A stretch of 64,000 bases of DNA from Halosimplex halophilum (GTDB taxonomy: Archaea; Halobacteriota; Halobacteria; Halobacteriales; Haloarculaceae). The notes beneath the pieces are model-generated. The model was not told where the DNA came from, made no database searches, and worked only from the letters and a program-made list of their open reading frames with translations. Shown one piece after another: positions 2,499-42,645 of the stretch. The stretch spans positions 682,001 to 746,000 of the forward strand of contig NZ_ML214298.1 of assembly GCF_004698125.1 (NCBI RefSeq), read 5' to 3'. The position numbers and the translations under genes are program-made. Numbering within the stretch: position 1 is the first letter of the stretch; every line of letters starts with the position of its first letter.

Positions 2499-3399
2499 CG
2501 AGCCGACCGGTCGCGGTAGTAGTCGCGGTCCCGGCGGTGGTCGTCGGGGCGGTCGCCGCGGAGCGGTTTTCCCCGCCGACGGCGGCCCGCGCCTCGGGCA
2601 GCCAGTCGGGCGGCGAGACCGAGACGTTTCCGACCCGGCGGTAGGCGTACTCGTACTCGACGCGGGTCGGGGTCCCGCGGCGCTCGGTGGTGTAGGTGAC
2701 CGAGAGCCGGCGGACGAACCCGTCGGGGGTGACGACGGCGCCGACGGAGTAGTTGGCGGCGTACTCGCCGTCGACGACGCCGGCGCCGCGGCTCTCGACC
2801 CAGTAGCGCCGCTCGCCGTCGACCCCGCCGACCGACACGGACGCGTTCCGGAGCGACAGGTACGACTGGACGCGGTTGGCGGCGACCAGCGCGAGGACCT
2901 GGCTGTCGTTCGTGGCGGGACGGGCGCGGTAGATGGGTCCGTCGGCGTCCGCCTCGCGGACGTAGCGGGTGTCGCCGTCGGCGTAGCGGTCGATCGCCGG
3001 CCGGTAAGTGAGCGTGAGCCCGGTCCAGACCACCCGCCGCGAGCGGCTCCAGCGGTAGGTGTCGCCGTCCTCCAGCCGGACCGTCCTGGTGCGGTTCCGG
3101 GCGACCGTCCAGTTACCGTCGCCGGCGGCCGTCAGCGTCCGCCGGCGCTCGGTCCAGACGTACGACCGGCCGGAGACCGCCCGGACGTGGGCGGCGGCGA
3201 GCGCGCCCGGGCTGATGGTCCCGCGTGTCATCACGCCCGGCGGGAGCGGCGAGGGCGCGGCCGTGTCCGTCGGCGCGGTCGTCGGCACCGGCGCCGGCGT
3301 CAGCGTCTCGGCGGGCCCCTCCGGGTTGCCCCCGTCGGCGACGATCGAACAGCCCGCGAGGGCGACGAGGGCGACGACGACCACCGCGCGCCCGTCCAT
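2476..3399 (-). CDS. Haloarchaeal lipoprotein of unknown function
   Basis: A 307-residue predicted lipoprotein. From the ATG at 3399 the N-terminus is a short hydrophobic signal ending in L-A-G-C near residue 16, followed by a Thr/Pro/Ala linker and a soluble domain. The domain contains Y-R-W-S-R-S, tyrosine-rich strands, and a penultimate segment with W-L-P-E. Its layout resembles the lipoprotein at 156-914 (secreted, beta-rich), so the two genes around fumC may belong to one broad family. The upstream in-frame ATG at 3426 would put nine residues before the signal. The 3' end overlaps fumC by 23 bp, tail to tail. Confidence 0.8.
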   Translation of the reverse strand: MDGRAVVVVALVALAGCSIVADGGNPEGPAETLTPAPVPTTAPTDTAAPSPLPPGVMTRGTISPGALAAAHVRAVSGRSYVWTERRRTLTAAGDGNWTVARNRTRTVRLEDGDTYRWSRSRRVVWTGLTLTYRPAIDRYADGDTRYVREADADGPIYRARPATNDSQVLALVAANRVQSYLSLRNASVSVGGVDGERRYWVESRGAGVVDGEYAANYSVGAVVTPDGFVRRLSVTYTTERRGTPTRVEYEYAYRRVGNVSVSPPDWLPEARAAVGGENRSAATAPTTTAGTATTTATGRLVTPRRPG

Positions 3400-3642: not shown

Positions 3643-3836
3643 TCGAACTCCCACCCGAAGTACCGATAGACCGGGTACACGGACGCGAACTGGCAGACGA
3701 GGACGAGATTGAAGAATATCATCATCTGCGGGAACTCCGCGGGGTACCCCAGCACCACGTAGATGCTGTACGCGGTCAGTATCCCCCACACCGAGGCGAC
3801 GAACGTTATCAGCCGCTTCCTGATCGATTCCGGCAT
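3639..3836 (-). CDS. Small two-helix membrane protein, 65 aa
   Basis: A 65-residue protein with a basic N-terminus (M-P-E-S-I-R-K-R) and two hydrophobic helices at about residues 9-29 and 37-58. A short acidic C-terminus ends W-E-F-E. It shares a 4-nt overlap with the following 59-aa membrane gene, so the two are probably one operon and may form a small complex. An AT-rich segment (TTTACAC read on the minus strand) lies about 35 nt upstream of the ATG. I do not recognise the family. Confidence 0.7.
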   Translation of the reverse strand: MPESIRKRLITFVASVWGILTAYSIYVVLGYPAEFPQMMIFFNLVLVCQFASVYPVYRYFGWEFE

Positions 3837-3979
3837 CGTACGGGCACGTCGGAAGTGATTCCGTGTGTGTAAATCCTTTCCGTTGACTCGTCAGCGGTTC
3901 CGTCGCGGTCGGGCGTCCCGAACGCGGGCGTCCCGGGCGATCCGATCCCGCGACCGCGGCGAACCGTCGAGACGGAGTC

Positions 3980-3987
3980 CTTTTTGT
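3980..3987 (+). promoter_or_regulatory. TATA-like box of gatE
   Basis: A T-run (CTTTTTGT) centred about 27 nt before the gatE ATG in GC-rich DNA, consistent with a leaderless transcript. Confidence 0.45.
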
Positions 3988-4010
3988 CCACCCGGTCGCA
4001 GACACGCCCA

Positions 4011-5885
4011 ATGAGCGACGCCGACTACGACTACGAGGACCTGGGGCTGGTGGCAGGACTCGAAATCCACCAGCAGCTGGACACGGCGACCAAGCTGTTC
4101 TGCCCGTGTCCGACGGAGCTCAGGGAGCCGGAGGAGTCCGAGCGGACCTTCACCCGGTATCTCCACCCGACCAAGAGCGAACTCGGGGAGATCGACGAGG
4201 CCGCCCTGGAGGAGAGCATGGTCGACCGGGAGTTCGAGTACCTCTCCTACGACACCACCTGTCTCGTCGAGGAGGACGACGAGCCGCCGGGCCGCGTCGA
4301 CCGCGAGGCGATGGACGTGGCCATGGAGATCGCCCAGCTGCTCGACGCCAGCGTCGTCGACCAGGTCCACGTCATGCGGAAGATCGTCGTCGACGGGTCG
4401 AACACCACGGGCTTCCAGCGGACGATGCGCGTCGCCGGCGAGGGCGCCATCGAGACCGACGAGGGCCAGGTCCGCATCGAGGACCTCATGCTAGAGGAGG
4501 AGTCCGCCCAGCGCGTCGAAGAGACCGACTCGGGGGTCCGCTACTCGCTCGACCGGCTGGGCATCCCGCTGGTGGAGATCGGGACCAAGCCGGACATCCG
4601 CTCGCCCGAGCAGGCCCGCGACGCCGCCGAGCGCATCGGGATGTTGCTGCGCTCGACCGGCCAGGTCAAGCGCGGCTTAGGTACTATTCGCCAGGACGTG
4701 AACGTCTCCATCGCCGAGGGCGCCCGCGTCGAGATCAAGGGCGTCCAGAGCCTCGACGACATCGACGACATCGTCCGCAACGAGGTCCGCCGGCAGGTCG
4801 AACTGCTCGATATCGCCGCCGAACTTGACGACCGCGACGCCGCGGTCGGCGAGCCACAGGACGTGACCGAGGTCTTCGCGGACACCGACTCGGGCGTCAT
4901 CGGCGGCGCGCTCTCCGACGGCGGGAACGTCATGGCAGTCCGCCTGGCGGGGTTCGACGGGCTCGTCGGCCGGGAGATCCAGCCCGACCGGCGGCTCGGC
5001 ACGGAGTTCTCGGACCACGCCAAACGGCACGGCGCCGGCGGCATCTTCCACACCGACGAACTCCCCGCCTACGGCGTGACGGACGAGGAGGTCGAGGCCC
5101 TGCGGGAGGCGGTCGACGCGGGACCGGAGGACGCGGTCGCGCTGGTCGCCGACGACCCGGAGACGACGGCACTGGCGATCGAGGCGGTCGTCGACCGGGC
5201 CGAGGTGGCGACGGACGAGGTGCCCGAGGAGACCCGCGACGCCAACGAGGACGGGACGACCCGCTACCTGCGGCCGCTGCCGGGCGCGGCGCGGATGTAC
5301 CCCGAGACGGACGTGCCGCCGGTCGAACCGGACCCCAGTGAGGTCGACCAGCCCGAACTCCTCACGGAGAAGGTCGACCGCTACGAGAGCGAGTTTGGCC
5401 TCGACGCCGGCCTCGCCGAGCAGGTCGCCTACGGCGAGTACATGCCGCTGTTCGAGCGGGTCGTCGACGAGGGCGTCGACCCGACGCTGGCGGCGACGAC
5501 CTTCGAGTCGACCCTGACCGAGTTGCGCCGCGACGACGTGGCCGTCGGGAACCTGACCGACGACCACCTCGCCGACGCGCTCGCGCTGGTCGACGGCGGC
5601 GAGGTCCCCCAGGAGGGGCTGGACGACCTCCTGCGGGCGCTGGCGTCCGAGCCCGGTCTCACGGCCGAGGAAGCGGTCGAGCGGGAGGACCTCGGCGGCG
5701 TCGGCGAGGACGAGGTGCGCGAGGCGGTCGTGCGCGTCGTCGAGCGCAACGCCGAACAGGTCGAGGAAGAAGGGATGGGCGCGTTCTCCGGGCTGATGGG
5801 CGAGTGCATGGGTGAACTCCGCGGGAAGGCGGACGGCGACACGGTGAGCAGCGTCCTCCGCGAGGAGATCCAGGAGCGGGCATAG
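4011..5885 (+). CDS. gatE: Glu-tRNA(Gln) amidotransferase subunit E
   Basis: A 624-residue subunit of the archaeal GatDE amidotransferase. GatDE converts misacylated Glu-tRNA(Gln) to Gln-tRNA(Gln), with GatD supplying ammonia. The N-terminal GatB/E catalytic domain begins G-L-E-I-H-Q-Q-L, with the cysteines C-P-C-P at about residues 33-36 and the N-T-T-G-F-Q-R motif near 135. The length exceeds bacterial GatB (about 480 residues) by the GAD insertion (near residues 280-400) typical of GatE. The helical tail domain (YqeY-like) contains M-G-E-C-M-G-E-L-R-G-K at the end. gatD is not in the window. The ATG of the next gene directly follows the stop, so co-transcription is likely. Confidence 0.96.
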   Translation: MSDADYDYEDLGLVAGLEIHQQLDTATKLFCPCPTELREPEESERTFTRYLHPTKSELGEIDEAALEESMVDREFEYLSYDTTCLVEEDDEPPGRVDREAMDVAMEIAQLLDASVVDQVHVMRKIVVDGSNTTGFQRTMRVAGEGAIETDEGQVRIEDLMLEEESAQRVEETDSGVRYSLDRLGIPLVEIGTKPDIRSPEQARDAAERIGMLLRSTGQVKRGLGTIRQDVNVSIAEGARVEIKGVQSLDDIDDIVRNEVRRQVELLDIAAELDDRDAAVGEPQDVTEVFADTDSGVIGGALSDGGNVMAVRLAGFDGLVGREIQPDRRLGTEFSDHAKRHGAGGIFHTDELPAYGVTDEEVEALREAVDAGPEDAVALVADDPETTALAIEAVVDRAEVATDEVPEETRDANEDGTTRYLRPLPGAARMYPETDVPPVEPDPSEVDQPELLTEKVDRYESEFGLDAGLAEQVAYGEYMPLFERVVDEGVDPTLAATTFESTLTELRRDDVAVGNLTDDHLADALALVDGGEVPQEGLDDLLRALASEPGLTAEEAVEREDLGGVGEDEVREAVVRVVERNAEQVEEEGMGAFSGLMGECMGELRGKADGDTVSSVLREEIQERA

Positions 5886-41733: not shown

Positions 41734-41975
41734 GAGCGGGCGGTGCCGAGAGCGCGGATATCCCGTCTCAGCGACCGCGAGCGCGCCGAGGGCTTTCAGC
41801 GCCCGCCGTCTAATGCGGTCGATTCAACTCAGAGCGAGCGCACCGAGGACGTTCGCCGCTCGCTGTCGCCCCCGATGGTCGCGACTCGCGGCGATCAGGG
41901 GACGAGAGATCCCACTCTCACTATCGGTCGTGGATGCCGACGAACGGGCTTGATGTGGGAGAATACGGAAGTGGG

Positions 41976-42023
41976 ACTCCGCGTCGGTGAAATCGGAGAA
42001 GCGCCCGAGGCGGGATTTGAACC
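41976..42023 (-). repeat. 48-bp direct repeat of the tRNA-Asp 3' end (copy A), att-like
   Basis: Identical over 48 bp to 42418-42465, which covers the last 22 nt of the tRNA-Asp gene and 26 nt downstream of it. The two copies lie 442 bp apart in the same orientation. This is the arrangement left by site-specific integration at a tRNA 3' end. Confidence 0.8.
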
Positions 42024-42077
42024 ACGCCCGAGAACCTGCGCCGAAGGCGCAGAACCTCGGTCTATTTCAAATCCCGC
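42010..42077. repeat. Nested palindrome capped by tRNA T-arm sequence
   Basis: Outer arms GCGGGATTTGAA (42010-42021) and TTCAAATCCCGC (42066-42077) are perfect inverted repeats derived from the tRNA T-arm. Inside, CCGAG-AAC-CTGCGCC-GAA-GGCGCAG-AAC-CTCGG forms a perfect symmetric hairpin with a 7-bp inner and a 5-bp outer stem. Confidence 0.75.
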
Positions 42078-42145
42078 ATGAGGTCGTTTCGCTGCTCACG
42101 GTGGCGAGCACACGAGGTGCTCGCCGTGTTGTTCACAGCAGAAGA

Positions 42146-42225
42146 CGCCCGAGGCGGGATTTGAACCGGAATCAGACGTGCTCGCTCGTTGCACTCGCTG
42201 CGCGCGACTGATAGGGTTCAGATCC
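42146..42225. repeat. 80-bp T-arm-capped repeat unit, copy B
   Basis: Begins with the tRNA-Asp acceptor/T-arm sequence (minus-strand sense) and ends with the T-arm in the opposite sense. It differs from copy C (42296-42375) at two positions. Confidence 0.8.
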
Positions 42226-42295
42226 CGGACGACGCACACTGAATCCGGAACGCGGCGCGATGAAACGCGCCGCTTGCCAGTTGGATTCAGAGAAG

Positions 42296-42375
42296 CGCCC
42301 GAAGCGGGATTTGAACCGGAATCAGACGTGCTCGCTCGTTGCACTCGCTGCGCGCGACTGATAGGGTTCAAATCC
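42296..42375. repeat. 80-bp T-arm-capped repeat unit, copy C
   Basis: Near-identical to copy B, exactly 150 bp further on. The 11-nt termini GGATTTGAACC and GGTTCAAATCC are perfect inverted repeats, and an inner ATCAG/CTGAT pair lies just inside them. Confidence 0.8.
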
Positions 42376-42417
42376 AGTACTGCCGCTCTCCGATTTCGAG
42401 AGGGACGCGGAGATGAA

Positions 42418-42465
42418 ACTCCGCGTCGGTGAAATCGGAGAAGCGCCCGAGGCGGGATTTGAACC
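42418..42465 (-). repeat. 48-bp direct repeat including the tRNA-Asp 3' end (copy D, true tRNA)
   Basis: The partner of 41976-42023. It covers the 3' end of the functional tRNA gene plus 26 nt downstream, so it would be the attachment site next to the intact tRNA. Confidence 0.8.
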
Positions 42466-42516
42466 CGCGTCACGACCGTGACAGGGTCGTATGATGGGCC
42501 ACTACACCACCCGGGC
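42444..42516 (-). tRNA. tRNA-Asp (GTC)
   Basis: A 73-nt cloverleaf on the minus strand. The acceptor GCCCGGG pairs with CTCGGGC (last pair G-C first, one mismatch-free stem allowing G-T), with discriminator G and no encoded CCA. The anticodon stem CGACC/GGTCG carries the loop CTGTCAC with anticodon GTC. The T-arm GCGGG-TTCAAAT-CCCGC is intact and the D-arm contains GTAGTGG. A TATA-like box (42541-42550 on the minus strand) lies about 30 nt upstream. No intron is visible. Three further partial copies of its 3' end lie downstream. Confidence 0.97.
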
Positions 42517-42540
42517 ACGCATTCACGGGTTCGCCGGAGA

Positions 42541-42550
42541 TGAATTTAAG
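42541..42550 (-). promoter_or_regulatory. TATA-like box of tRNA-Asp
   Basis: Reads CTTAAATTCA on the minus strand, about 25-34 nt before the tRNA 5' end. Confidence 0.55.
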
Positions 42551-42645
42551 ACTTTCCAAACGAGGTCCCCGTGCCACGGGGAGTCACGCTGAACCCCCTC
42601 GCGGCCGTTCTCGGGTCTGTTAACCGTCGTCGGATCCGAGACGCC

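Follow-up and report, generated by a model that had tools for sequence, protein, structure and literature searches.

Described repeats at tRNA genes and the tRNA-Asp array

The closest described systems are the tRNA-linked repeats (TLRs) of E. coli, which, as set out in PMC8144298, lie in tandem immediately 3' of a tRNA or rRNA gene and are defined by a 3' end of 18-19 bp identical to the 3' end of that upstream tRNA or rRNA. The E. coli TLRs have been on record since 1978, their sRNAs are transcribed, and an explanation of their origin, as well as a function for the tRNA-linked ones, is still lacking (PMC8144298). For example, the tyrTV locus of K-12 (178-bp repeats/rttR; NC_000913.3:1286200-1287500, L250) holds three repeats that each end in an exact 19-nt copy of the tRNA tail, with an inverted tail arm (GGGGAAGGAT) that lies ~100 nt before the copy and folds onto it. 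No mention of this arm was found in the accessible portion of PMC8144298. The rrnB TLR of E. coli showed no inverted arm in our scan. Integrons hold tandem cassettes beside a fixed primary site, where new cassettes are gained proximally and imperfect inverted repeats fold as single strands. Integrases classically use as their attachment block a stretch of identity extending from T-loop to tRNA end. Archaeal integrases target tRNA genes (PMC8371274). No report of TLR-type repeats in archaea was found in the open-access literature.

The window, a stretch of 64,000 nucleotides from Halosimplex halophilum, contains three units in tandem downstream of tRNA-Asp(GTC) and on the same strand, with the following features:

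42443..42516, minus strand: tRNA-Asp(GTC), the anchor of the array (ARAGORN; Rfam RF00005 at 42444-42516, 59.3 bits)
42444-42465, minus strand: the 3' tail of tRNA-Asp itself (G52-N73)
42386..42442, minus strand: hairpin H1 of unit 1, outer stem CTCCGATTTC/GAAATCGG, inner GCGGAG-TTTCAT-CTCCGC (RNAfold of the array)
42365..42375, minus strand: inverted T-arm of unit 1, GGATTTGAACC on the tRNA strand
42318..42364, minus strand: type I core of unit 1, CTATCAGTCGCGCGCAGCGA..GAGCGAGCACGTCTGATTCC (covariation; covariance model R1)
42296..42317, minus strand: unit 1 copy of the tRNA-Asp 3' tail, one mismatch to the tRNA
42239..42290, minus strand: hairpin H1 of unit 2, CTGAATCCAACTGG..CCGGATTCAG, TTTCAT loop (RNAfold)
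42215..42225, minus strand: inverted T-arm of unit 2, GGATCTGAACC
42168..42214, minus strand: type I core of unit 2, without differences from the unit 1 core
42146..42167, minus strand: unit 2 copy of the tRNA-Asp 3' tail, exact
42024..42077, minus strand: inverted T-arm GCGGGATTTGAAAT (42064-42077) and type II core AGACCGAGGTTCTGCGCC..GGCGCAGGTTCTCGGGCGT of unit 3
42002..42023, minus strand: unit 3 copy of the tRNA-Asp 3' tail, exact, then a near-repeat of the tRNA trailer

Units 1 and 2 run, on the tRNA-Asp strand, from hairpin H1 through the inverted T-arm and the core to the tail copy. An initial annotation of this DNA had correctly described two 80-bp units (B and C, at 42146-42225 and 42296-42375) with starts exactly 150 bp from one another, two differences over the 80 positions and an ATCAG/CTGAT pair. 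The 11-nt perfect inverted T-arm termini that it gave to both are found in unit C, whereas unit B has one mismatch (GGTTCAGATCC). It had also read the units antisense, their order on the tRNA-Asp strand being inverted T-arm, core, then T-arm with acceptor 3' end, and both of its units stand but belong to a larger array, in which a third unit with another core spans 42002-42081 and carries at its end one more copy of the tRNA 3' end (42002-42023). The type II core of this third unit also occurs at tRNA-Arg(CCT) in the same genome (L022) and at tRNA-Asp of genome G007 (L026), and hairpins with a TTTCAT loop resembling H1 lie downstream of other haloarchaeal tRNAs. A 140-aa ORF (42096-42518, minus strand) that crosses both tRNA-Asp and the array is almost certainly spurious, but ORFs of this kind could be annotated as genes in haloarchaeal genomes. 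In an Rfam search of 41900-42600, tRNA alone scored above the gathering score, other matches were weak and no match to the RtT family was found. A known RNA family was rejected as an identity for the units because Rfam gives none for them.

A unit family at haloarchaeal tRNA genes

Many haloarchaeal tRNA genes carry one or more short folding units after their 3' end. BLASTN with the unit gave matches in 49 of 60 relatives, at up to 13 places per genome, and 39 of the 40 loci examined had an adjoining tRNA gene, with eleven amino-acid types represented. An independent scan with the exact core pattern, which held no T-arm letters, returned matches in named haloarchaea from many genera, and 68 of 83 followed a tRNA of the same strand at a distance of 46-413 bp. 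Among the remaining 15, several lay <300 bp from the start of the stretch read, with the tRNA tail visible at the edge in some, and two (L125 and L156) had a larger integrated element between tRNA and unit. Of 247 genomes of the phylum searched with a covariance model, 41 had the family, all of them from the order Halobacteriales, and an adjoining tRNA gene was present at 19 of 20 fetched loci from three genomes of distant families. In H. halophilum itself the model gave 10 matches, and 7/7 among the matches listed were at known tRNAs. Of 40 tRNA loci fetched from this genome, 37 were analysable; nine of these 37 had same-strand downstream copies of their own 21-nt tail, with 0 copies upstream and 0 on the opposite strand. 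Loci held 1-4 units, and at least four unrelated cores (type I and at least three others) were built on one common plan.

These units share the defining anatomy of TLRs, since they lie downstream of a tRNA, end in the 3' end of that upstream gene and number one to several per locus; similarly to the tyrTV repeats, they have both a tail copy and an inverted tail arm. In contrast, no sequence relation to E. coli TLRs was seen and the cores differ, and the haloarchaeal units are shorter (~100-150 bp), occur at many isotypes, have recurrent cores and carry arms that track the local T-loop. The haloarchaeal array very probably consists of TLR-type repeats of the E. coli kind. The initial annotation had known of no named class of this sort, a view overturned by the tRNA-linked repeats of E. 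coli, whose defining anatomy, as given in PMC8144298 and checked in sequence, is the same. Its proposal of a discrete repeat family with tRNA sequence at its ends is borne out by recurrence at the tRNAs of many haloarchaea and by a clean empty site (below), and the BLASTN comparison that it suggested yielded many matches at tRNA 3' ends, with T-arm ends in agreement with the local tRNA.

Tail copies, inverted arms and their fold

The end of each unit is a 22-nt copy of the local tRNA 3' end, from G52 to the discriminator base N73, and the tRNA gene beside the units remains intact. At most one mismatch to the local tail in 20 nt was found in 133 of 176 units; the mean over all 176 was 1.3 mismatches to the local tail versus 6.4 to other tails, and the local tail was strictly the best match in 142. 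When each tRNA was compared with its first copy at 123 loci, the block of identity extended from -2 to +19 relative to the T-loop, with identity of 0.94-1.00 within it, 0.30 just before and 0.55 just after; positions 0-18 had served for selection, but the edges had not. The copied block stops exactly at the mature tRNA end, where RNase Z cuts. At tRNA-Leu(TAG), an A/G difference between species in the T-loop is common to tRNA and copy, while the arm in L240 retains the other base; this agreement between tRNA and copy would resemble concerted evolution.

The inverted arm pairs with the tail copy and the conserved core closes the hairpin, the right arm in the aligned sequences being GTTCRAN. At loci with a T-loop other than TTCAAAT, the arm was the exact complement of the local loop in 25/33 and of TTCAAAT in 1/33 (p ~1e-14), and on the acceptor side its match to the local tail was weak (median rank 0.38 among other tails). 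The pairing of the arm, best through the T-loop and weak at the acceptor side, is the opposite of what a tRNA-minihelix mimic, selected for likeness to the top half of the tRNA, would need, and disfavours that reading. In a second class of small hairpins (L233, L234, L236, L237, L031 and L035), the copy begins at the T-stem (TCCCG...) and the inverted arm complements the acceptor end, for example GGGCGTGGCG..TCCCGCCACGCCCG at tRNA-Arg(CCT).

A local DNA accident, by slippage or by a templated strand switch at the hairpin of the tRNA, could also leave inverted and direct copies of tail and trailer. Within the window a near-repeat of tail and trailer flanks the array, and the inverted arm and H1 resemble reverse complements of the local tail and trailer, as this account would predict. 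However, the weak acceptor-side match of the arm and the decay polarity among copies (below) both speak against it, and the conserved core recurs across many species and isotypes. Chance does not explain the units, given the downstream tail copies at 9/37 tRNAs of this genome and the recurrence of the core beside tRNAs in many haloarchaea. Local accident, which the initial annotation had named as the reading to follow from matches at this locus only, is largely refuted by the common cores; it is a very improbable source of the family, although new arms may originate in this way.

Across 63 aligned type I hairpins, 94.9% of stem positions paired, compared with 16-40% in slid controls, and eight pairs of the type I stem had changes on both sides (76 cells versus 21 +/- 6 in shuffles). 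Counts of G.U versus A.C were 3:4 in the variable stem and 19:1 in the tRNA acceptor stems of the same loci (p=0.009), with only 7 stem cells; that G.U is not favoured over A.C hints, on these small numbers, at pairing that is read or selected as DNA. A tandem G.A motif was conserved on the sense strand only.

Such compensatory changes would also be expected of a structured non-coding RNA made from the tRNA primary transcript, in which RNase Z would cut the trailer RNA at its tRNA-like 3' end to leave a stable small RNA, conserved through RNA function and vertical inheritance. For E. coli rrA/rrB/rrF, a processed small RNA cut at the copied 5S end has reportedly been proposed. Consistent with an RNA, the units are always on the tRNA strand and near the tRNA, the copy terminates at the mature tRNA end, the G.A motif is conserved on the sense strand only, cores group by isotype (below), and TLR sRNAs are transcribed in E. 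coli (PMC8144298). However, RNA function would require the stem and not exact identity to the local tRNA, at least four unrelated cores follow the same plan, wobble pairs are no commoner than A.C in the variable stem, presence is patchy within the genus (below), and Rfam offered no family beyond the tRNA itself and weak matches. On balance, an RNA origin of these features is possible but doubtful.

Turnover of units at the tRNA tail

Comparison within the genus revealed an empty site. In genome G003, tRNA-Arg(CCT) directly abuts a flank that is found 237 bp further on in H. halophilum, where two units precede it; the junction in G003 is exact at the tail and the insertion consists of the units alone. 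This site could represent a loss and not an original absence. At other orthologous loci in the genus, the numbers and types of units vary and presence is patchy. Decay has a polarity, the last copy being worse than the first in 19 loci and better in 5 (p=0.007). In genome G006 (L222), tRNA-Val(GAC) has a CRISPR-like array (repeat CTTCAACCCCACAAGGGTTCGTCTGGAAC) a short distance downstream, at the place where sister species have a unit.

Cores clustered by isotype across genomes (p=0.005) but not by genome across isotypes (p=0.94), a pattern partly confounded by related species, suggesting that units are mostly resident and that movement between isotypes is rare. Frequent hopping between isotypes within a genome is rejected as a rule by this clustering; exceptions, in which different isotypes have a core in common, are Asp/Arg in H. 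halophilum and Val/Ser in Halorubellus salinus. Neither the core pattern nor blastn of the units found any copy in viral contigs, phages or plasmids. No integrase gene lies between the repeats, where units of ~100-150 bp leave no room for one, no recombinase was linked to the units and no transposase or integrase accompanies them; we know of no transposase family for them. The mobile element envisaged at the outset is only partly supported, given this lack of carriers and enzymes and the grouping of cores by isotype.

Larger elements occur beside units at two loci. In Salinigranum salinum (L156:3818-4885), an element with a tyrosine-integrase-like ORF lies just upstream, in the tRNA sense, of a unit array at ~2900-3000 whose tail copy is that of a tRNA-Ala, and several shorter acceptor-end copies (CCCGGCGAGTCC) lie between element and unit. 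In Halorubrum rubrum (L125, minus strand, 3721-4994), a partial tRNA-Gly (attR-like, from the anticodon stem onward) stands ahead of the unit, so that an integrated element separates tRNA from array.

The units might be scars of larger tRNA-targeting integrative elements with a tyrosine integrase and a T-loop crossover, each unit being an attR end left over after decay or deletion. They share with such elements the target, the block from T-loop to 3' end and the restored tRNA (PMC8371274, with general knowledge), and the integrase-like ORF of L156 and the elements at both loci fit this origin, as does the block itself in its resemblance to a classic integrase attachment block. However, the units are gene-free and only ~100-150 bp long, the integrase gene is absent from every array, tandem units are spaced at 100-150 bp, the empty-site insertion has the length of the units alone, and random remnants would not be expected to yield one and the same hairpin of 60-80 nt, its arms covarying, across many isotypes and families; an origin as scars is improbable. 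MITEs and REP/REPIN sequences are likewise small and gene-free with inverted ends, but the units lie strictly at tRNA 3' ends in one orientation and, unlike in MITEs, their 22-bp 'duplication' is always a tRNA tail. Integron attC sites offer a further parallel, with tandem units beside a fixed site and a folding, imperfect inverted repeat at the end of each; in contrast, the haloarchaeal right arm is GTTCRAN and not GTTRRRY, there are no cassette genes and the primary site is a tRNA gene.

The reading that we prefer, with a probability of roughly 55%, is that recombination at the tail of the tRNA moves archaeal TLR cassettes in and out. It is supported by the location downstream of the tRNA on the same strand, the local tail match and the sharp block edges; by the empty site and the polarity of decay; and by the arm that tracks the local T-loop, the stem covariation, the G.U and A.C counts and the Leu(TAG) agreement between tRNA and copy. 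It is weakened by the missing linked recombinase, the lack of viral, phage or plasmid copies and the cores grouped by isotype, and an RNA role could also account for the constant orientation and for a block that stops exactly where the mature tRNA does. Gain and loss would occur by recombination at the block of T-loop and tail, which may be site-specific, through a recombinase of the host or of an element, or homologous, with tail copies as partners. Entry would mostly adjoin the tRNA, with older copies displaced outward and decaying, and recombination between tail copies would preserve their identity with the local tRNA. As with integron attC sites, a putative recombinase would read the folded strand; the units would also be transcribed with the tRNA, and this account would require no RNA function. 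A wider view, in which bacterial and haloarchaeal TLRs form one mechanistic class of self-folding, gene-free DNA cassettes on an integron-like platform at tRNA 3' ends, moved by a putative recombinase that reads the hairpin of tail and complement, is speculative and on present evidence unlikely.

Together, these observations suggest that tRNA ends gain and shed tiny cassettes. The family is large, recurrent and covarying, and in one archaeal genome it accompanies roughly one in four of the tRNA genes analysed. With such a family and with empty sites in sister species, the origin of TLRs becomes testable, as nature supplies numerous replicates, the exchange block is defined to 22 bp, and hosts can be cultured and studied by genetics. 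Should a recombinase read the fold, the units would represent a new type of cassette platform, with tRNA genes as its base; if they act as RNA, they would constitute a widespread unannotated RNA family tied to tRNA expression.
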